Positions 38,149-51,311 of a stretch of DNA of 64,000 bases are shown one piece after another (the first letter of the stretch is position 1; each line of letters begins with the position of its first letter). The position numbers and the translations under genes were made by a program. The notes below the pieces were generated by a model. It was not told the origin of the DNA, ran no database searches, and worked only from the letters and a program-made list of their open reading frames with translations. Location of the stretch: positions 124,001 through 188,000 of the forward strand of contig JANXSZ010000011.1 of assembly GCA_025356445.1 (NCBI GenBank). The letters run 5' to 3'. This DNA is from Betaproteobacteria bacterium (GTDB taxonomy: Bacteria; Pseudomonadota; Gammaproteobacteria; Burkholderiales; Burkholderiaceae_C).

Positions 38149-38162
38149 ACTCTCGCCCGTAT

Positions 38163-38400
38163 CAGGAGAGAGTTTTCCCCGAGAAAACCGCCGAAGGCTG
38201 AACGCTCAGGCAAAAGGACTGGTACGAATTGATTCTGTTGGAGAGCGGTCATTCCCTTGTCACTTACCAGTTAACAAGGCGCAATGGCCCACCGAAGGGG
38301 CAAGCCGAAACTTCTCTGTGAAGCGGTGAATCTCTCAGGTATCCCGGACAACAGGGTTTCCCACACGGCCACATATTGCGGGCCGTGGGTTAACTTTTGG
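38163..38400 (+). promoter_or_regulatory. Tandem glycine riboswitch of the gcv operon
   Basis: Two glycine aptamers in a row. The first (about 38165-38222) has GGAGAG, CCGAAGG and CGCTCAGGCAAAAGGAC. The second (about 38240-38350) has GGAGAG, CCGAAGGGGCAA and TCTCTCAGGTATCCCGGACA. A hairpin follows (38360-38389; CACGGCC paired with GGCCGTG, extended by two more pairs past a bulge) and then TTAACTTTT, a likely expression platform. It directly precedes gcvT, the best known target of this riboswitch. A long frame that runs through it from 38284 is not the real gcvT start. Confidence 0.95.
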
Positions 38401-43072: not shown

Positions 43073-44329
43073 ATGCAAAGCCCCATAAGAATGGCTAAAA
43101 AGTTGAAAGCGCACAACGTATTGGTTGTGAACACGGCTGTGTGGGAAGGTCTTTCGCGCCTGCCCTACCTGCTTCACCGAGCAGGCTGCCATGTCAGCCT
43201 GATGGCACCCGAGTCAAGTTACGCGGCCCGTTCGGGCTTCGTTGACCAGCACTTCATAGCCCCCAGCGATCCAGATGCAGCGCTGGATGTCTTGCACCAC
43301 CATCTGGAAACCCAAGCCACACCTTACGACTGGGTCATCATGGGAGACGACCCCCTGCTGTACGCACTGGGACGGCGGCAGTATGAAGCCTGGGTCAGCC
43401 GCGTTTTCCCCGCGCACTTCACGCCCAACGGCTTGGCCTTTGTGGTGTCCAAAATCGCCTTCATCACCCAGTGCCATGCCGCTGGCGTGGCGATGCCTGA
43501 CTTTCGGGTCTGCCACGACACCGCTGCGCTGACGCAGGCCGCCGTACAGTTGAAGTTCCCCCTGGTGCTCAAATCTGAACAGGGGTTTGCAGGGAATGCT
43601 GTGTTTGTCGTGCCCGATGCCCAGGCCTTGGCAACATGCCCTGCCGCCTACCCACTGATTGCACAAGCGTTCGTCCCTGGCAAAACCGGGAGCGCAGCAG
43701 CCATTTTTAACCATGGCAAATTAGTGTGCTGGTTTTCCTACCTGCGTGAAAGAACCTGGGGCGCCTTGGGGCCGTCCACCGCTGTCAAATTCCAATACAT
43801 GCCCGAGCTTCAACCGATGCTGACCAAACTGGGGCATTTGTCGGGCTACCACGGGCTGTGCGGGGTTGACTTCATTCAGCACGCGCAAACTGGCGACATC
43901 GTGCTGCTGGAGCAAAACTTCCGCCCCACCCTGACCATGAACCTGGGCCAGCGCGTGGGAGTGGACTTTGCAGCCGCCTTGCGCACCTTGCTGACAGGCG
44001 GTGCCAAAGACCATGGCGATGGGACTATCGACATGGGCACCCAGCCCCACCCGCCCATCACCCAAAAGGAAACCATCCAGACCACGGTGCCCTTGTTCCC
44101 CACGGATGTTTTCAGGGCCATCGACGACAAAGACTGGGCAGGCTTGCTGCGGTGGCTGCTGAAGGCCTCGTGGTGGCGCGAACTGAGCTGGCACGACACT
44201 CCGCTGCTGCGCTATAACTTGAAACAAATTGCACTGCGCCCTTTGCGCTCGGTGAAAAGAAGGTCGCTCAAGCAACCGTTTGGGGCAAATACCGCTCCAC
44301 CAAATGCGCCCAATAGCTCGCCCCGGTGA
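43073..44329 (+). CDS. ATP-grasp domain protein of unknown substrate
   Basis: 418 residues from the ATG at 43073; an ATG at 43091 gives 412. ATP-grasp enzymes join a carboxylate to an amine or thiol using ATP through an acyl-phosphate. Visible parts: an N-terminal Rossmann-like section (HNVLVVNTAVWEGLSRLPYLLHRAGCHVSLMAPESSYAARSGFVD), the ATP-binding lysines in FVVSKIAFITQCHAAGVAMPDF and FPLVLKSEQGFAGNAVFVV, and the metal-site acid block LCGVDFIQHAQTGDIVLLEQNFRPTLTMNLG. The basic C-terminal tail of about 80 residues is not part of the core. It follows gcvP but is separated by a hairpin. The substrate is not recognisable. Confidence 0.82.
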   Translation: MQSPIRMAKKLKAHNVLVVNTAVWEGLSRLPYLLHRAGCHVSLMAPESSYAARSGFVDQHFIAPSDPDAALDVLHHHLETQATPYDWVIMGDDPLLYALGRRQYEAWVSRVFPAHFTPNGLAFVVSKIAFITQCHAAGVAMPDFRVCHDTAALTQAAVQLKFPLVLKSEQGFAGNAVFVVPDAQALATCPAAYPLIAQAFVPGKTGSAAAIFNHGKLVCWFSYLRERTWGALGPSTAVKFQYMPELQPMLTKLGHLSGYHGLCGVDFIQHAQTGDIVLLEQNFRPTLTMNLGQRVGVDFAAALRTLLTGGAKDHGDGTIDMGTQPHPPITQKETIQTTVPLFPTDVFRAIDDKDWAGLLRWLLKASWWRELSWHDTPLLRYNLKQIALRPLRSVKRRSLKQPFGANTAPPNAPNSSPR

Positions 44330-45482
44330 CCAAAATTTCATCGTTGAAATCGTAGCCTGGGTTGTGCACCATGCAGCTGCCCTCCCCTGCGCCATTGCCG
44401 ATCAGCAGGTAGCAGCCCGGCACTTTTTCCAGCATAAAGGCGAAATCTTCGCTGCCTGAAAGCGCCGCCCCCTGCGCAGTGACACGCTCAGCCCCGAACA
44501 ACTCGGTAGCGACAGCCGTCGCAAAGTGGGTTTCTGCCTCGGCATTGACCAGCACAGCATAGCCATGGCGGTAGTCCACATCGGCCTGCACGCCATAACT
44601 GGCGGCCTGTGCAGCCACCAGCGCGTGGATGCGGCGCTCCAGCAACACACGCACGGCGGGGTTCAGCGAACGCACGCTGATCTCCAACCTCACTTCATCG
44701 GGAATCACGTTGTTGGCGTTACCGCCATGGATGGCCCCCACCGTGACCACGGCCATGTCCAGCGGATTTACATTGCGGGAGACCACGGTTTGCAACGCCA
44801 TGATGATGGATGCCGCAGCCACAACAGGGTCGGCCGTGTGCTGCGGCAGCGCACCATGCCCACCGGTACCGCGCACCAGTACCGTCACGTAATCCGATGA
44901 CGCCATGAACGGCCCACTGCGAAACACCATGTGCCCAGCAGGGTGGCCCGGCATGTTGTGCTGCGCAAACACCGCATCGCAGGGGTATTTGGTGAACAGG
45001 CCATCGGCCATCATTCGCACTGCGCCGCCCAGGCCTTCTTCAGCAGGCTGAAAAATCAGGTTCAGCGTGCCCGAAAACCTGCGTGTATCCGCCAGGTAAT
45101 GCGCAGCCCCCAGCAGCGTGGCTGTGTGGCCGTCATGGCCGCAGGCGTGCATCACGCCCTCCGAGGTGCTGGCCCAAGTGAGGCCGGTCTTCTCGTGGAT
45201 AGGCAAGGCGTCCATGTCAGCCCGCAGCCCCACGGCGCGCGTGCCGTTGCCGTTGCGCATGCGCCCCACCACACCGGTGCCACCCAGCCCACGCTCGACC
45301 TCGTAGCCCCAGTCGGTCAGGCAGCGGGCCACGATGTCGCTGGTGCGGTGCTCTTCAAAACCCAATTCAGGGTGGCGGTGGACATCGCGGCGCAGCGTGG
45401 TCATTTCGCTGCGGTAGTGCTGCAAGGCATCCATAAGGGGTGTGGTCATGTGGGGCTCGTCGGTAGGGTTGTTCGTTGTCAC
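44268..45482 (-). CDS. M20-family amidohydrolase (hippurate hydrolase/HipO-like)
   Basis: A 404-residue metal-dependent amidase/carboxypeptidase, the class that hydrolyses N-acyl amino acids such as hippurate. Motifs: RDVHRHPELGFEEHRT near residue 38, the metal site MHACGHDGHTATLLGAA, FQPAEEGLGGA with the catalytic Glu pair, QHNMPGHPAGHM and SGSEDFAFMLEKVPG. The GTG start overlaps the Bug gene stop (GTGA), which supports coupling; an ATG at 45449 is a fair alternative. Its 3' end overlaps the convergent ATP-grasp gene by 62 bp. The pairing with a Bug binding protein suggests uptake plus hydrolysis of an N-acylated compound. Confidence 0.92.
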   Translation of the reverse strand: MTTNNPTDEPHMTTPLMDALQHYRSEMTTLRRDVHRHPELGFEEHRTSDIVARCLTDWGYEVERGLGGTGVVGRMRNGNGTRAVGLRADMDALPIHEKTGLTWASTSEGVMHACGHDGHTATLLGAAHYLADTRRFSGTLNLIFQPAEEGLGGAVRMMADGLFTKYPCDAVFAQHNMPGHPAGHMVFRSGPFMASSDYVTVLVRGTGGHGALPQHTADPVVAAASIIMALQTVVSRNVNPLDMAVVTVGAIHGGNANNVIPDEVRLEISVRSLNPAVRVLLERRIHALVAAQAASYGVQADVDYRHGYAVLVNAEAETHFATAVATELFGAERVTAQGAALSGSEDFAFMLEKVPGCYLLIGNGAGEGSCMVHNPGYDFNDEILVTGASYWAHLVERYLPQTVA

Positions 45483-46510
45483 TGGCGTTCAATGCCCACA
45501 GCCTTGGCCAGCTTGCGGTAACTGGCCGCCTCAACAGCATAAAACTTGGCGGACTCGTCAAGCGACATCGGCTTGGCCACGATTTGGAACTGCGCACCCA
45601 AAGACTCGCGCACCTTGGGGTCTGTCAGCACCGCCTGAATGGCCTTTTGCAGTTTTTGCATCATCTCTGGAGGCGTTCCCTTTTTGACCATATAGCCCGA
45701 CCAGATAGTGAAGTTAAAGTCTTTGAGCAGCTTGCCCTCCGTCACGGTTGGCAGGTTTTTAAGCGACTCAGCACGGCTGGCCCCCAATTGCCCCAGCACC
45801 TTCACCCGACCCGCCGCGACCATGCCATCAATTGCGCCAAATTGCGGCAATATGGCGTAATCCAGATTACCCCCCGCCAAATCTTGCAGCATGGGTGCCA
45901 CGCCTTTGTAGGGCACATGCGTCATCGGCGCTTTAATCACCTGCCCCAGGTGCTCCGACAGCACATGGTAGAGCGAGCCGATGCCCACACTCCCGTAGTT
46001 CAGCGGCTTGTCTTTGGGTGCATTGCGGGCCAGCGTGATGAGTTCATCCATGTTGGACGCGGCCAGCTCTTTTTTGGCAACCACCACCATAGGCGCATAG
46101 GCAATCAGCTGCACCAGCTGGAAGTCCTCGGCATCGAACTTGACCGCCGCATTCGCCAGTGGCGACAAGATCACTTCGTTAGGTGAACCCTGGTAAATAA
46201 AATGCCCGTCCGCAGGTGCTGAAAGCACCTTTTGGGCACCCAAGGCACCACTCACGCCGCCCAGGTTTTCCACCATGACGGGCACGCCCAACTCCCGCCC
46301 CAGCGGCGTATTAAAGACACGGGCGATCACATCAGACGGCCCACCAGCGGGGTAAGGCACCATCAGCGCAACCGTGCCCCCGGGGATGTTCTGGGCGCTG
46401 ACAGGGGATACAGGCAACAACACAGCAACCAGCGCAGCCGTCATAACGACAGCAGCGCGGATAAAGGGGTGTGGCATCAAAAACCGAGCATGGCGTTGAA
46501 CAAGGTGCAT
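45479..46510 (-). CDS. Tripartite tricarboxylate transporter-type substrate-binding protein (Bug/TctC)
   Basis: 343 residues from the ATG at 46510, which has GGAG upstream. A signal peptide ends near PVSAQ. The Bug family pattern is clear: GTVALMVPYPAGGPSDVIARVFNTPLGRELGVPVMVENLGGVSGALGAQKV at the N-terminus, MTHVPYKGVAPMLQDLAGGNLDYAI, and GYMVKKGTPPEMMQKLQKAI. No TctA/TctB membrane genes are nearby, as is common for the expanded Bug families of Burkholderiales. It is upstream of and coupled to the M20 gene. Confidence 0.92.
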   Translation of the reverse strand: MHLVQRHARFLMPHPFIRAAVVMTAALVAVLLPVSPVSAQNIPGGTVALMVPYPAGGPSDVIARVFNTPLGRELGVPVMVENLGGVSGALGAQKVLSAPADGHFIYQGSPNEVILSPLANAAVKFDAEDFQLVQLIAYAPMVVVAKKELAASNMDELITLARNAPKDKPLNYGSVGIGSLYHVLSEHLGQVIKAPMTHVPYKGVAPMLQDLAGGNLDYAILPQFGAIDGMVAAGRVKVLGQLGASRAESLKNLPTVTEGKLLKDFNFTIWSGYMVKKGTPPEMMQKLQKAIQAVLTDPKVRESLGAQFQIVAKPMSLDESAKFYAVEAASYRKLAKAVGIERQ

Positions 46511-46737
46511 GAAGACTCCGGGCAGTGAGAGGGTGGTAAATGAAAGATGAGAAACAAAGCAGATGCTAAAAACCCTTGCACCATTTGTCCAATGCATGTT
46601 TTTTATAAAAACAATTACCAAAACTCATGGATAAAACCCTAGACTCCAGAGCACAGAAGCTTCAGTCCGACCACACCAGCAATGGCCAACCGTGAACCAA
46701 CAAGTCACGTCCCACACAACCACCCGCTTGGCACCCG

Positions 46738-47538
46738 ATGATCGCCTCCCTCCCCATGTACCTGGCCCACCCAGCCGGTAGCGCCGCCCTCTGGCATTAC
46801 TTGGCTCACTGCCTGCGCCAAGCAGGCGTGCCCAACGTGCCCCTCACGCTGGACATACCCACCAACGCCGACCTCACCGCCCACTGGCTGCGACCCGATC
46901 TGCTGTTCAGCCAAACCTGCGGCTACCCCATCGTGGACGCGCTGGAAAGCCAGGTACAGGTCATAGGCGCACTGCGCTACACGGCCCCGGGTTGCGATGG
47001 CATCCACTACAGCAGCCATTTGGTCTGCCGCGCAGACGACCCCAGCACCCAGCTGGCCTCGTTCCGCAACCGGGTTGCAGCCTACAACTCGACCGACTCG
47101 CAATCGGGCTACCACAGCCTGCGCAACCTGGTAGCCCCACTGGCCGTGGGCGGACAGTTCTTTGCACGGGCCATAGCGTCCGGTGCCCACATCGACTCCC
47201 TCGCCTTGATCCGCAACGGCACCGCCGACATCGCCGCCATCGACTGCATCAGCTACGCCCAATTCCAGCGCTACCAGCCCGAAAGCCTGCACAACATCCG
47301 CATCCTGGGCCGCACCGCCAGCGCCCCCGGCACCCCACTGATTACCGCCCGAAGCACACCCCCAGCGCTCCTAGCCCTCCTGCGCCAAACCCTGCACCAA
47401 GCCATGACCGACCCCGCACTCGCCCCAACACGCGCCGAGCTGCTGATCGGCGGGTTTGAAGAAGTGCCTGCGGCGGCGTATGGGGTGTTGCAGGATGGGG
47501 AGCGGCAAGCAACGGCGCTGGGGATGGCGCAGTTGTAG
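46738..47538 (+). CDS. PhnD-like (phosphate/phosphonate-type) binding-protein fold, without signal peptide
   Basis: 266 residues starting MIASLPMYLAHPAGSAALWHYLA, with no signal peptide, so probably cytoplasmic. The fold is suggested by DLLFSQTCGYPIVDAL, RVAAYNSTDSQSGYHSLRNLV, GTADIAAIDCISYAQFQRYQP and ILGRTASAPGTPLITA, which match PhnD/SsuA-like proteins. No ABC permease or ATPase is near. It is divergent from the Bug/M20 operon (227-bp gap). The role, such as a sensor or an enzyme, is unknown. Confidence 0.75.
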   Translation: MIASLPMYLAHPAGSAALWHYLAHCLRQAGVPNVPLTLDIPTNADLTAHWLRPDLLFSQTCGYPIVDALESQVQVIGALRYTAPGCDGIHYSSHLVCRADDPSTQLASFRNRVAAYNSTDSQSGYHSLRNLVAPLAVGGQFFARAIASGAHIDSLALIRNGTADIAAIDCISYAQFQRYQPESLHNIRILGRTASAPGTPLITARSTPPALLALLRQTLHQAMTDPALAPTRAELLIGGFEEVPAAAYGVLQDGERQATALGMAQL

Positions 47539-47602
47539 GTGGGGAATGGCTTGAATTAGGCCGTAATGCTAGGGAAGCTCTGCATAATCCCCGTCATTGT
47601 GA

Positions 47603-47842
47603 GGTAGGCTAGATCAAGCAGCCTCAAACGATAAAGCTATAGGTGCAGGAGTCATCCTGTTTTGGCCTGCACTCTTCTTTCTTGGAGGAACAAAGCAGCA
47701 AGAAGCAGACTATGCACGGCTCAAGGGGGAATATGATGCCGTTCAACAAGCGGCCATACAAAAGAAGTGCGCCGGTTTAGTCATATCACCTCCAAAATTA
47801 TCCCCACCAGTACCAATGCCTGCGGCATCCTCTCCAAGCTAA
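47603..47842 (+). pseudogene. 5'-truncated remnant of a small membrane-protein gene
   Basis: An open frame of 79 codons with no start codon, beginning just after a TGA: GRLDQAASNDKAIGAGVILFWPALFFLGGTKQQEADYARLKGEYDAVQQAAIQKKC and then a Pro/Ser tail to TAA at 47842. I recall the segment ...LFWPALFFLGGTKQQEAEYARLKGEYDA... as the C-terminal part of a small uncharacterised lipoprotein family, whose N-terminal half (signal peptide and lipobox) is missing here. The rest of 47539-47895 holds nothing I recognise. Confidence 0.6.
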
Positions 47843-47895
47843 GTGGGATCGAACAGGTCAGCCAAGCAAAGCACTCACCGCATGCCTCTCCCCCC

Positions 47896-48825
47896 ATGAA
47901 CCTCAGCCAACTCAACCACCTGATTGCCCTTTACGAACTGGGTTCGTTCAGTCGGGCGGCGGAGCGGTTGCATTTGACGCAACCGGCGCTCAGCCGCAGT
48001 GTGCAGGCGCTGGAAGCTGAGTTGGGGGTGGCGCTGATTGACCGTGTGGGCAAGCGCAATGAATTCACGCAGTTTGGCAAAACCGTGGTGGCCCGTGCGC
48101 GCCGGGTGGCGCATGAGGCGGATGAGCTGAAGCGCTCGGCGGTGCTGCTGCGTGAAGGCGCGATGGGGTCGGTGCGGATAGGCTTAAGTTCGGGCCCGGC
48201 GGCGTTGCTGATGGTGCCGCTGCTGAAATTCATGGCCAATGCTTACCCGGCGGTTCACCTCAGTCTGGTGCAAGGCCCCATCGCGATGCAGGTCGCAGCG
48301 CTGCATGACAAGGCGCTGGACGCGCTGGTGGTGGACTCGCGCGCGTTGGTACCCGCAGTGGATTTGCAGGTCGAGCAACTGCCGGATGTGCACGCCGGGT
48401 TCCTATGCCGCAGCGGGCACCCGCTGTGCAGCCTGGAACGCATCACGCTGGCGCAGTTGGTCAAGTTTCCGGTGGCGTCGTCGCCCTTGAGCGATGAGGT
48501 GGCCCGTGCGCTGGTGGAGCGCTACGGGCCAGGGGGCCACCCTGACAGCCTCGTAACGTTGCGCTGTGAGCACCTCGCCAGCCTGCTGGAGGTGACGCTG
48601 CAAACCGATGCGGTCTACCTGGGCACGCTGGCATCGGCGCGTGCAGCGCTGGACGCGGGCTTGCTGGTGAACTTGCCGATGGCGATGCCTTTGCTGTCAT
48701 CGGCCCGCTACGCGCTGGTCAGCCTGCTGGGACGGACTGAACCGCCCGCGCTGAACATCGTGCGCCGCTTTGTGGTTGACCAGATCGTGGACTGCTCAAC
48801 CTACCAACCTCCTCTCAGCGGGTGA
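47896..48825 (+). CDS. LysR-family transcriptional regulator
   Basis: 309 residues from the ATG at 47896 (MNLSQLNHLIALYELGSF). The LysR helix-turn-helix is clear: FSRAAERLHLTQPALSRSVQALEAELGVALIDRVGKRNEFTQFGKTV. An effector-binding domain follows (GSVRIGLSSGPAALLMVPLLKFMANAYPAVHLSLVQGP). The usual divergent target is not obvious: upstream lie the PhnD-like gene and the gene remnant, and downstream the gene converges with dadA, overlapping by 11 bases. Confidence 0.92.
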   Translation: MNLSQLNHLIALYELGSFSRAAERLHLTQPALSRSVQALEAELGVALIDRVGKRNEFTQFGKTVVARARRVAHEADELKRSAVLLREGAMGSVRIGLSSGPAALLMVPLLKFMANAYPAVHLSLVQGPIAMQVAALHDKALDALVVDSRALVPAVDLQVEQLPDVHAGFLCRSGHPLCSLERITLAQLVKFPVASSPLSDEVARALVERYGPGGHPDSLVTLRCEHLASLLEVTLQTDAVYLGTLASARAALDAGLLVNLPMAMPLLSSARYALVSLLGRTEPPALNIVRRFVVDQIVDCSTYQPPLSG

Positions 48826-50068
48826 AAGCGAAATCCACTTCCGTTGCCAACCCGCTGACGATGCGCGCAATGGATTTGCCCGAACCACAAGCGTGCGTCC
48901 AGCCCAGCGTGCCGTGGCCGGTGTTCAGGTAGAAGTTAGGCAGTTTGGTTTTGCCAATCAAGGGCACGTTGCTGGGTGTGGCGGGACGCAAACCCGTCCA
49001 GTAGCTGGCCTGGGACGCATCGCCCGCACCGGGGAACAGCTGCTCGACGCGCTTCACAATGGCTTCGCAGCGCACGCGGTTCAGGTCGCGGTCATAGCCG
49101 TTGAATTCAGCGGTGCCGGCAATGCGAAGGCGGTCACCAAGGCGTGAAAACACCAGTTTGTACTCGTCATCGGTCAAGCTGACCTGGTGTGCCATGGACG
49201 CGTCTTTCACCGGCATCGTCACCGAATAGCCTTTGGCGGGGTAGATGGGCAGGTGGATGCCCAGCGGCGCGGTGTACAGCGGGCTGAGCGAGCCCATCGC
49301 CATCACATACGCGTCAGCCTGGATGCGTTGGAAGCGGCCTTCGCTGTCGGTGGCTTCCACGTGGTCGATGCGTCCACCGGCCTCGCGCAGCGCGGTGATG
49401 GTGTGGCTCATCAGGAACCTGACGTCGCTGGCTTGGCAGAGCTTGACCAGCTCGCGAGCGAAGGCGTTGGCGTCGCCGGATTCGTCTTCGGCGGTGAAGG
49501 TGGCCCCGGCCAGCTGGGGGCGGATGTGGCGCAGCGTGGGCTCGATACGCACGGCCTCGTCAGCGGAAATCACCTGGCGCTCACAGCCCAGGGCGCGCAT
49601 TTGCTCGGCAGGCTTCAAGGCACCGTCAAACTCTTTTTGCGTGGTGTAGAAATGCAAAATACCCTGGGTGCGCTGGTCGTAACTGATGCCGGTGTCGCGC
49701 CGCAGCTGTTGCAAGGTGTCGCGGCTGTAGGTGCCCAAACGCACGATTTGCTCGATGTTGTGGCGGGTGCGTGCAGGCGTGCATTCGCGCAAGAACTGCA
49801 AGCCCCACAGCCACTGCCGCATATCAGCGCGGATGCGGAACAGCAACGGGGCGTCTTCGCGGCCCAGCCACTGCAAGACCTTGAGCGGTGCACTGGGGTT
49901 GGCCCAGGGTTCGGCGTGGCTGACCGAGATTTGCCCGCCATTGGCAAAGCTGGTTTCCGCAGCAGGGGTGGCCTGCCGATCAATCACTGTGACCTCGTGA
50001 CCGAGTTGAGAAAGGTAGTAAGCAGAGCTTGCGCCGAGCAAGCCGCTGCCGAGAACGAGTACGCGCAT
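48815..50068 (-). CDS. dadA: FAD-dependent D-amino-acid dehydrogenase-like oxidoreductase (DadA family) under a glycine riboswitch
   Basis: 417 residues from the ATG at 50068. FAD-binding motif VLGSGLLGASSAYYLSQLGHEVTVIDRQ at residues 5-32. DadA blocks follow: ANGGQISVSHAEPWANPSAPLKVLQWLGREDAPLLFR, YDQRTQGILHFYTTQKEF, PIYPAKGYSVTMPV, and WTGLRPATPSNVPLIGKTKLPNFYLNTGHGTLGWTHACGSGK. It would oxidise a D-amino acid or glycine to the oxo-acid and ammonia, passing electrons to quinone. The leader holds a tandem glycine riboswitch with a terminator, so glycine probably switches it on and may be a substrate or related metabolite. Confidence 0.94.
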   Translation of the reverse strand: MRVLVLGSGLLGASSAYYLSQLGHEVTVIDRQATPAAETSFANGGQISVSHAEPWANPSAPLKVLQWLGREDAPLLFRIRADMRQWLWGLQFLRECTPARTRHNIEQIVRLGTYSRDTLQQLRRDTGISYDQRTQGILHFYTTQKEFDGALKPAEQMRALGCERQVISADEAVRIEPTLRHIRPQLAGATFTAEDESGDANAFARELVKLCQASDVRFLMSHTITALREAGGRIDHVEATDSEGRFQRIQADAYVMAMGSLSPLYTAPLGIHLPIYPAKGYSVTMPVKDASMAHQVSLTDDEYKLVFSRLGDRLRIAGTAEFNGYDRDLNRVRCEAIVKRVEQLFPGAGDASQASYWTGLRPATPSNVPLIGKTKLPNFYLNTGHGTLGWTHACGSGKSIARIVSGLATEVDFAFTR

Positions 50069-50122
50069 GGTGAACACCTGAAAGTGTGCTCCCCGCAGCA
50101 TGGATGGGCGTAGACAGCTATT

Positions 50123-50158
50123 AAAAATGTAGCAACCTGACGCGTGCTGCGTGGTTGC
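50123..50158 (-). terminator. Riboswitch-controlled terminator before dadA
   Basis: On the minus strand: GCAACC (50158-50153) pairs with GGTTGC (50137-50132), with an inner ACGC/GCGT pair, and is followed by TACATTTTT. It lies between the second glycine aptamer and the dadA start, the normal place of a glycine-controlled terminator. Confidence 0.75.
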
Positions 50159-50159
50159 C

Positions 50160-50365
50160 GCTCCCCCTGTCCTTGGTACCTGAGAGATTCGCCCGCCAGC
50201 ACACGCTGAGGGGTTTGCTCCTTCGGTGCACCACATGGTGTGGTGGCTCTCCAGACGGCTTTTCAATGGGTGCAGTACGTGGCCCTGTGTGACGAGGGGG
50301 ATACCTGAGCGTTCATGGGAGTTTGCGCCTTCGGTGGAACGGCTTGGGCTGTTCACTCTCCTGCA
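50160..50365 (-). promoter_or_regulatory. Tandem glycine riboswitch upstream of the DadA-like gene
   Basis: Read on the minus strand there are two glycine aptamers. The first (about 50364-50283) has CAGGAGAGTGAAC, CACCGAAGGCGCAAA and GAACGCTCAGGTATCCCCC. The second (about 50255-50160) has CTGGAGAGCC, CACCGAAGGAGCAAA and GAATCTCTCAGGTACCAAGGAC. These are the same conserved blocks as in the gcvT leader at 38.2 kb. A terminator follows at 50158-50123. The remaining 50366-50489 should hold the divergent promoters of this RNA and of the M48 gene; I could not place them with confidence. Confidence 0.92.
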
Positions 50366-50489
50366 TTACGGATTCTATCGGTATCTGGTCGATTCGGGTT
50401 ATGTCTATTCGTTCACGGTGCCTGCCGTGAGGGGCCAGGGCCAGCCCTAAAATCAAATTCATCTTTACAACGCTACCGGAGCCCCTTCT

Positions 50490-51311
50490 ATGAACCGACT
50501 TATCTCCCGAGGGGCACTCCCGCTCTGCGCCGCTGTCTGTTTGCTGGCTGCATGCGCCTCGTCAACCAAATCCAGCGTGATGGGCAGCCACCGCTCGCAG
50601 CTGTTGCTGGTGTCGGCGCAAAGCGTGAACCAGTCTTCATTGCAGTACTACGCCCAGCAAAACGCAGATGCGCGCAAGAAAGGGGAACTCATCACCAGCG
50701 GGCCGGAATACAGCCGCGTCTACACCATCATGCAGCGCATGGTGCCGCAAGTGGGTGTGTTCCGCGACGATGCGATGAAATGGAAATGGGAGCTGGTGCT
50801 CATCAACGAAGACACGGTAAACGCGCATGTGATGGCGGACGGCAAAATCACGTTTTACACCGGCCTGATCCGCAAACTGAACCTGACAGACGACGAGATA
50901 GCTGCCGTCATGGGCCATGAAATCTCGCATGCCTTGCGCGAACACACCCGCGAAAAAATGTCGCAGCAGCAGGCGGCGGGTCTGCTGCTGGCGGTGGGCG
51001 GTGCAGTGGCGGGTGCGGGCGAAGGCACCATGCAAGTGGCCGGTCTGGCAAAAAGCATCGCGCTGGATTTGCCTTTCTCACGCGGTATGGAAGCCGAGGC
51101 CGATGAGTTTGGGCTGGAGCTTTCCGCCCGCGCTGGCTACAACCCGCAAGCGGCCATCACCCTGTGGGACAAGATGGGCAAACTGGGCGGCGGCGGTGGC
51201 CCCGGATTTTTGTCCACCCACCCCGCCCCTGGCGACCGCAAAGCGACCCTGACGGCCATGCAGCCCCAAGTCTGGCCGCTGTACCAAGCGGCGTTGCAAA
51301 ACAGGCGTTAA
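50490..51311 (+). CDS. M48-family metalloprotease lipoprotein
   Basis: A 273-residue envelope protease of the BepA/LoiP/YcaL kind, probably for quality control of outer-membrane proteins. The lipoprotein signal ends in LLAAC with Cys22. The zinc motif is HEISH at residues 143-147 (VMGHEISHALREH), and the third ligand Glu is in GMEAEADEFGLEL. The tail includes FLSTHPAPGDRKATL, common to these proteins. It has no TPR repeats. It is divergent from the dadA riboswitch and converges with the pseudouridine synthase gene. Confidence 0.93.
   Translation: MNRLISRGALPLCAAVCLLAACASSTKSSVMGSHRSQLLLVSAQSVNQSSLQYYAQQNADARKKGELITSGPEYSRVYTIMQRMVPQVGVFRDDAMKWKWELVLINEDTVNAHVMADGKITFYTGLIRKLNLTDDEIAAVMGHEISHALREHTREKMSQQQAAGLLLAVGGAVAGAGEGTMQVAGLAKSIALDLPFSRGMEAEADEFGLELSARAGYNPQAAITLWDKMGKLGGGGGPGFLSTHPAPGDRKATLTAMQPQVWPLYQAALQNRR

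Follow-up and report, generated by a model that had tools for sequence, protein, structure and literature searches.

In the window, by which we mean the whole stretch of 64,000 nucleotides that was analysed, a tandem glycine riboswitch precedes dadA-A, which encodes an FAD-dependent dehydrogenase belonging to the DadA superfamily, and we consider it likely that this leader is an ON-switch and that the enzyme acts mainly on glycine, converting it to glyoxylate. The riboswitch class and its fold were already known; the assignment of dadA to the glycine regulon across the family is new. The argument starts from the presence of both aptamers, the clade-specific conservation of the switch, the covariation of a pseudoknot and, in several leaders, hairpins that compete with the bound state. 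The features of the leader, its gene and a second switch in the window are as follows.

50372-50377, minus strand: -10-like hexamer TAGAAT just 5' of aptamer 1, read from the sequence.
50263-50373, minus strand: glycine aptamer 1, diverged (RF00504, 37 bits), with P1 formed by UGCAG (50365-50361) and CUGCA (50275-50271).
50317-50321, minus strand: CUCCC of the aptamer-1 P3b loop, forming the first half of the pseudoknot and complementary to GGGAG.
50157-50264, minus strand: glycine aptamer 2, canonical (RF00504, 55.7 bits).
50161-50165, minus strand: GGGAG, following the aptamer-2 GGACAG and forming the second half of the pseudoknot, from pairing and covariation.
50123-50159, minus strand: expression-platform hairpin GGCAACC...GGUUGCU, then ACAUUUUU, from the ligand-free minimum-energy fold.
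48815-50068, minus strand: dadA-A, FAD-dependent dehydrogenase of the DAO fold, 417 aa (NF001933, 496.4 bits; Pfam DAO, 228.8 bits; tree).
38153-38361, plus strand: second glycine riboswitch with two aptamers (53.2 bits and 44.4 bits), before gcvT-gcvH-gcvP.

In the scan of the 64-kb window, aptamer 2 exceeded the RF00504 gathering score of 32 by a wide margin (E 8.7e-09), and it ends 88 nt ahead of dadA-A. Aptamer 1 was likewise over the gathering score in a search of the whole genome; when its stretch was scanned alone, the match covered 50285-50373 with 32.1 bits (E 3.7e-05), which is marginal relative to that score. It was absent from the RF00504 matches of the whole-window scan, probably owing to a 2-nt overlap with aptamer 2, as only the top-scoring of overlapping matches is retained. 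The core motifs (GGAGAG, CGAAGG and CUCAGG) are all intact in aptamer 1, and its divergence lies in the 3' junction, which reads GUACUG instead of the family GGACnG. An earlier sequence-only reading of this DNA had described two complete glycine aptamers and named an Rfam search as a check. That search matched both, each over the gathering score, but aptamer 1 is nonstandard at its junction. The leader limits given there, 50069-50365, were borne out, with the start codon at 50068. Across relatives, the spacing from the CUCAGG of aptamer 1 to that of aptamer 2 ranged from 91 to 181 nt.

The position of the TAGAAT hexamer suggests that the transcript starts at about P1 of aptamer 1. A TANAAT hexamer 7-13 nt ahead of the aptamer-1 AGGAGA was found in 59 of 104 distinct leaders, compared to 14 of 5200 random 24-mers from the same loci; a sigma-70 scan returned no full promoter at the window's leader. 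For the second switch, the two aptamers were detected at 38153-38231 (53.2 bits, window scan) and 38232-38361 (44.4 bits, scanned apart), and Pfam identified GCV_T, GCV_H and GDC-P proteins, confirming the earlier claim that gcvTHP lies under a glycine switch 12 kb away. The RF00504 matches listed for the genome number three, all of them in the window: the two dadA-A aptamers and the gcv aptamer at 38153-38231.

The pairing of a glycine switch with dadA is not special to this genome and is widespread across relatives. To describe its distribution, we distinguish the A genes, found by protein search of 100 family genomes, from a type B subfamily (NF009074/PRK12409), which was searched in 150 genomes, the first 100 of them being used for pairing, and was matched in 25 of the 150 (24 over the cut-off). 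Switch sites and genes were paired by place and strand. The 100 family genomes held 131 glycine-switch sites, scored against RF00504 with stricter filters under which weak matches are lost: 80 were ahead of gcvT, 32 ahead of dadA-A, 13 ahead of dadA-B and 6 ahead of none of these. Counted from the genes of the same genomes, a switch precedes 32/33 A genes (the exception is in G031), 13/15 B genes and 80/84 gcvT genes, and none of the 78 other DadA homologues (41-53% identity). Among the six unpaired sites, two (in G026 and G043) belong to gcv, since both genomes gave a gcvP match, and that in G047 belongs to a truncated B gene. In G007 (L196 / L011, G007:C1:1068901-1069105), a B-type switch lies ahead of a gene read as a periplasmic substrate-binding protein; in G027 (L198, G027:C131:3905-4124), the stretch fetched contained an A-type tandem switch but no dadA; and in G069 (L201, G069:C22:282268), a decayed A-type aptamer 1 lies near an open frame read as a transposase.

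Similar results were obtained with the best 80 of the named loci listed, the named loci including Variovorax, Polaromonas, Rubrivivax, Acidovorax and Rhodoferax. Upstream sequence was available for 79 of these (L078 being the exception), and 73 of the 79 have the switch; both aptamers were recognised by strict motif in 72 of the best 80 and by relaxed motif in L074, and the six switch-less loci gave no RF00504 match. This conservation over many genera, together with the loop/tract covariation described below, supports the earlier claim that dadA-A is probably under the control of a glycine riboswitch.

Beyond the family, a DadA-A-like protein (E <=1e-143) was found in 104 of 300 genomes of the order, and the tandem switch in 20 of 72 assessed order-level A-like loci, indicating that the enzyme can do without the switch. 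This assessment drew on 76 further loci (L169-L195, L206-L245 and L257-L265), leaving out L175, which has no upstream sequence, L212, L257 and L264; ten of the 52 switch-less loci were judged by Rfam and the others by motif alone. In a tree of 133 proteins, switch-bearing A genes of several families were interspersed with switch-less ones, and this scatter would fit either an old switch that was lost many times or transfer. Just 3' of one dadA-A gene without a glycine switch (L106:2024-2100), we also observed a match to SAM_alpha of 38.8 bits (gathering score 36).

The restriction of the switch to A and B, with 0/78 among the other homologues, favours glycine as the substrate. A further argument comes from five genomes (G019, G022, G028, G030 and G067; completeness 96-100) in which a glycine switch was detected solely ahead of dadA-A, and in which searches for gcvT (at E 1e-60) and gcvP (at E 1e-50) gave no match; retention of the switch in these GCV-less genomes likewise favours glycine. 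The idea that the enzyme generally makes up for a lost GCV system was rejected, since A is not enriched in GCV-less genomes: it occurs in 5/13 genomes with neither gcvT nor gcvP detected compared to 27/87 others (the 87 include G006, whose two gcvP pieces score under the cut-off), and 6 of the 13 carry neither A nor B. The original study of Cupriavidus necator DadA6 as a glycine oxidase is reportedly that of Claassens and others from 2020. Two papers call DadA6 a glycine oxidase (PMC11879842; PMC12421819), and this treatment in print also favours glycine.

DadA-A would then oxidise glycine to glyoxylate and ammonia and, by analogy with DadA, would pass the electrons to the respiratory chain. 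Malate synthase G was present in 8/8 genomes searched, and no glyoxylate carboligase over the cut-off was found in the same 8, so glyoxylate would most likely pass through malate synthase G to malate. In most genomes the enzyme would operate alongside the glycine cleavage system, and in a few it would act in the absence of that system. The suggestion of a second glycine-oxidation route to glyoxylate, made from the sequence of the window, thus stands as the best-supported function, but the activity itself is put forward from the linkage to the switch, the retention in GCV-less genomes and the role of DadA6.

We regard it as unlikely, though it is the strongest competing explanation, that DadA-A acts on D-amino acids (D-alanine, D-serine or others), with glycine a mere signal of general amino-acid or peptide abundance. 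This explanation agrees with NCBIfam, which places DadA-A in its D-amino acid dehydrogenase subfamily (496.4 bits to NF001933 compared to a cut-off of 383), and with Escherichia coli DadA, described in PMC9436414 as a D-alanine:quinone oxidoreductase with a higher efficiency on D-serine than on glycine. The same source gives, for glycine, a KM >500 mM and a kcat/KM of 0.275 per M per s. Because E. coli DadA is so poor on glycine, the family name is no predictor of glycine activity, and glycine use, if real, must be a property of the clade. DadA-A is 39% identical to E. coli DadA (b1189) and 42% identical to the other DadA of its own genome, and it is this separate, canonical DadA (L246:5565-6788), with 663.8 bits to NF001933, that argues against a D-amino-acid substrate for DadA-A, given that no listed RF00504 match lies ahead of it. 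All 78 of the other DadA homologues lacking the switch, and the existence of a second DadA subfamily with a glycine switch of its own, point in the same direction. The canonical gene adjoins a frame read as a class III aminotransferase.

In the tree, a quick maximum-likelihood reconstruction with 48 of 130 inner branches drawn open, E. coli DadA clustered with this genome's canonical DadA (SH-aLRT 100) and not with A; type B formed a separate group (SH-aLRT 100), and the 104-row group holding A had a value of 85. DadA-A fell under the cut-offs of both the type B model (326.1 vs 494 bits) and the glycine oxidase ThiO model TIGR02352 (115.2 vs 250.8 bits). It matched 13 solved sequences, among them 7 glycine oxidases, 3 sarcosine oxidases and 2 dimethylglycine oxidases, the best-scoring being the glycine oxidase 4ysh_A (E 9.9e-17). 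An AlphaFold model of DadA-A had a mean pLDDT of 63.4, too poor for comparison of the pocket. A search of a plasmid collection returned no DadA-A homologue of at least 60% identity and no match to the leader.

The type B leaders are built differently. At the type-B loci (L004-L025 and L144-L167), we observed mostly a type-1-like switch, its loop being CCGCCCCGG and its tract resembling GGGGGCG; the first aptamer is strong and the second is weak, ending in AACAG or similar for GGACAG. The different build of the glycine switch on B suggests that this subfamily was tied to the same signal independently, which favours glycine as the substrate of A. Taken further, A and B would be riboswitch-controlled, respiratory-chain-linked glycine dehydrogenases of the Burkholderiales, each with its own kind of switch, that are served by about one third of the glycine riboswitches found in the family (45/131 sites, 100 genomes) and form the main glycine-degrading route in some GCV-less genomes; to this wider proposal we give an even chance. 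Strict mutual exclusion of A and B was rejected, as the two co-occur in 1 of the 100 genomes (G067, in which B is a fragment at a contig edge that scores under the cut-off). Their avoidance of each other (Fisher p 0.033, calculated without correction for kinship) is suggestive only.

In Variovorax and relatives, we also noticed a second, fast-diverged DadA-like copy (37-43% identity to A) directly 5' of dadA-A, at about 2410-3690 in L044, L050, L051, L052, L058, L064, L086 and L102, and at 2398-3642 in L093. A motif match placed a glycine-aptamer core ahead of this copy, and the motifs FANGGQ, GLRP and GHGTLGW were missing from both of the second copies aligned (L051 and L093). This second copy is possibly a pseudoenzyme that has stayed under the control of glycine, which would imply that the switch can persist on a gene whose catalysis has probably been lost.

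The genes that follow dadA-A in the window bear on a different explanation for its substrate.

47767-48825, plus strand: LysR-type regulator, convergent with dadA; homologue in the flanks of 27 of the best 80 loci.
46738-47538, plus strand: phosphonate-binding-like periplasmic protein, its gene flanked by those for LysR and TctC.
45479-46621, minus strand: TctC receptor (Pfam TctC); homologue near dadA in 31 of the best 80 loci.
44268-45482, minus strand: M20 amidohydrolase (TIGR01891, 359 bits); homologue in 21 of the best 80 loci.

A neighbourhood of LysR regulator, TctC receptor, M20 hydrolase and dadA recurs in the window (44268-48825), in L053, L065, L068 and L108 and in others, and it may serve the uptake of N-acyl amino acids and their hydrolysis with release of glycine. 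Some of the TctC homologues near dadA are only 28-39% identical. It could be argued from this neighbourhood that the enzyme really acts on an N-substituted glycine (sarcosine, for example), or that dadA-A ends an N-acylglycine pathway by way of M20 and TctC. The frequencies given above, the TIGR01891 amidohydrolase in the window, the M20 homologue lying directly 5' of dadA in L053, L065, L068, L085 and others, and the five sarcosine and dimethylglycine oxidases among the 13 solved relatives are all in keeping with that possibility. However, M20 was found in only 21 of the best 80 loci, hippurate as the compound concerned is a guess, and a pathway releasing glycine would still leave glycine as the substrate. 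We therefore judge this explanation improbable, and glycine remains the more likely substrate.

The direction of the switch is suggested by an interaction between the two aptamers. In the window, the G-tract that follows the GGACAG of aptamer 2 finds its pairing partner in the aptamer-1 P3b loop, as in ON-type switches. Both halves of this pseudoknot were present in 123 of 182 leaders and not in the remaining 59, with a few leaders counted twice. The co-varying loop/tract pairs include CUCCC/GGGAG, CUCUC/GAGAG, CUUCC/GGAAG, CCCUC/GAGGG, CACCC/GGGUG, CCCCG/CGGGG, CCGCCCG/CGGGCGG and CCCC/GGGG; in L179 both halves are gone, and in L079 three pairs are left. Eleven loop/tract classes gave 54 pairs, compared to 36.8 (sd 3.1) after shuffling (0/20000 shuffles as high), and 29 distinct combinations had a mean of 5.21 contiguous pairs, compared to 4.00 (sd 0.15; 0/5000 as high). 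In 21 distinct ungapped rows, 97.1% of 105 cells pair, with two-sided changes at 3/5 pairs (six cells), and sliding the partner reduced pairing to at most 85.7%; the covariation score was reached by 0/500 shuffles, with the caveat that kinship among sequences may also lift the score above shuffles, and the number of further pair types, 3, was not above that of the shuffles (mean 3.6). A covariance model of our own (R1) had only 7 base pairs and was set aside. The same pairing test was not significant for 13 family gcvT leaders (640/5000 shuffles as high). Among type-B leaders picked by motif, 20/20 distinct rows had 4-6 pairs between a C-rich loop and a G tract; the loop is mostly CGCCCC, with GGGGCG or a near variant as partner, and hardly varies.

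This pairing was rejected as a new interaction, being the P5 pseudoknot of Torgerson et al., as cited in PMC13104608. The same paper reports that, in 66% of aminomethyltransferase switches, a pseudoknot joins a C-tract of the P3b loop to a G-tract downstream of aptamer 2, and it describes the P5 pseudoknot as frequent in ON-switches and absent in OFF-switches. The pseudoknot, already known, serves here only as evidence, and its reported distribution argues for an ON-switch.

The expression platform would fit this direction, most clearly in L222, L186 and L065. The hairpin GGCAACC...GGUUGCU spans 50159-50131, with ACAUUUUU directly after it (50130-50123), and its 5' arm starts inside the 3' strand of aptamer-2 P1, the GGC being common to both. 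For aptamer 2 and the leader, the ligand-free minimum-energy fold (-75.2 kcal/mol) includes this hairpin; the best fold with P1 forced has -64.9 kcal/mol, both values being computed without pseudoknot or ligand. A stable hairpin was found at the platform position in 84 of 94 distinct family leaders, the window included. At least four U right after the hairpin were counted in 4 of these 84, the window being one of them, although the count takes the most stable hairpin and so misses some U-runs, e.g., in L093 and L122. The earlier mention of a terminator was right as to a hairpin with a U-run, but a terminator consensus scan of 49950-50500 gave 0 sites vs 0.4 expected, and the terminator of the window is weak. 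In other leaders (L065, L136, L186 and L222), hairpins absorb the GGACAG and the following tract, wholly or partly: in L222 and L186 the competing stem is followed by a U-run, in L136 it is strong and lacks a clean U-run, and in L065 its arm extends to the Shine-Dalgarno stretch. We read this as platforms that are interchangeable among leaders, transcriptional or translational, and in which the bound state would free the gene. When glycine is plentiful, the two aptamers would dock, aptamer-2 P1 and the pseudoknot of P3b loop and G-tract would form, and that strand would be withdrawn from a downstream hairpin that otherwise halts transcription or hides the ribosome site. An OFF-switch, or a switch that has decayed and lost its function, is a very improbable reading of the leader, since the divergence of aptamer 1 (32-37 bits), the failure of the scan to recognise the window terminator and the decayed leader of L201 are set against strong conservation with compensatory changes, a pseudoknot reported for ON-switches (PMC13104608) and hairpins that compete with the bound state.

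These results provide a testable function for a large number of genes whose default annotation is D-amino acid dehydrogenase, add glycine oxidation to the genes under glycine riboswitches, and indicate that two subfamilies are possibly mis-named, with glycine oxidation by both directly testable. In the literature searched, we did not find a glycine riboswitch linked with D-amino acid dehydrogenase, dadA or the Burkholderiales; PMC3766115 reports twelve orthologue groups of glycine metabolism under glycine switches, itemised in an additional file, and this gene list may include dadA-A. The findings are also relevant to beta-proteobacteria engineered to use the reductive glycine pathway, in which oxidation of glycine has been examined as a potential wasteful sink, and the switch predicts from sequence which strains carry such an enzyme. 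In C. necator, deletion of glycine oxidation is reported to have brought no further gain (PMC11879842; PMC12421819).

Among known systems, E. coli DadA (b1189) shares with DadA-A the DAO fold family and the NCBIfam subfamily NF001933, but differs in identity (39%) and tree position; its gene adjoins dadX, whereas no racemase was found among the scanned window neighbours of dadA-A. ThiO is similar in that it supplies the best-scoring solved sequence and 7 of the 13 matches are named glycine oxidase, but DadA-A lies below its TIGR02352 cut-off. C. necator DadA6, compared by its published description, is likewise a DadA-named beta-proteobacterial enzyme with a published glycine-oxidase role. The type-B leaders look like the type-1 singlet with a 3' ghost aptamer, but precede a DadA gene, whereas 93% of type-1 singletons are reported to precede GCV genes (PMC6944388). 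The closest counterpart of the dadA-A leader is the ON-type tandem gcvT riboswitch (RF00504), with which it shares two aptamers, the core motifs, the P5 pseudoknot and a platform that would compete with aptamer-2 P1. It differs in the gene controlled, in GUACUG for GGACnG and in its tolerance of inserts after CUCAGG, and, because the dadA-A transcript probably starts at P1, it would leave little room for the P0/kink-turn, unlike the gcvT switch.
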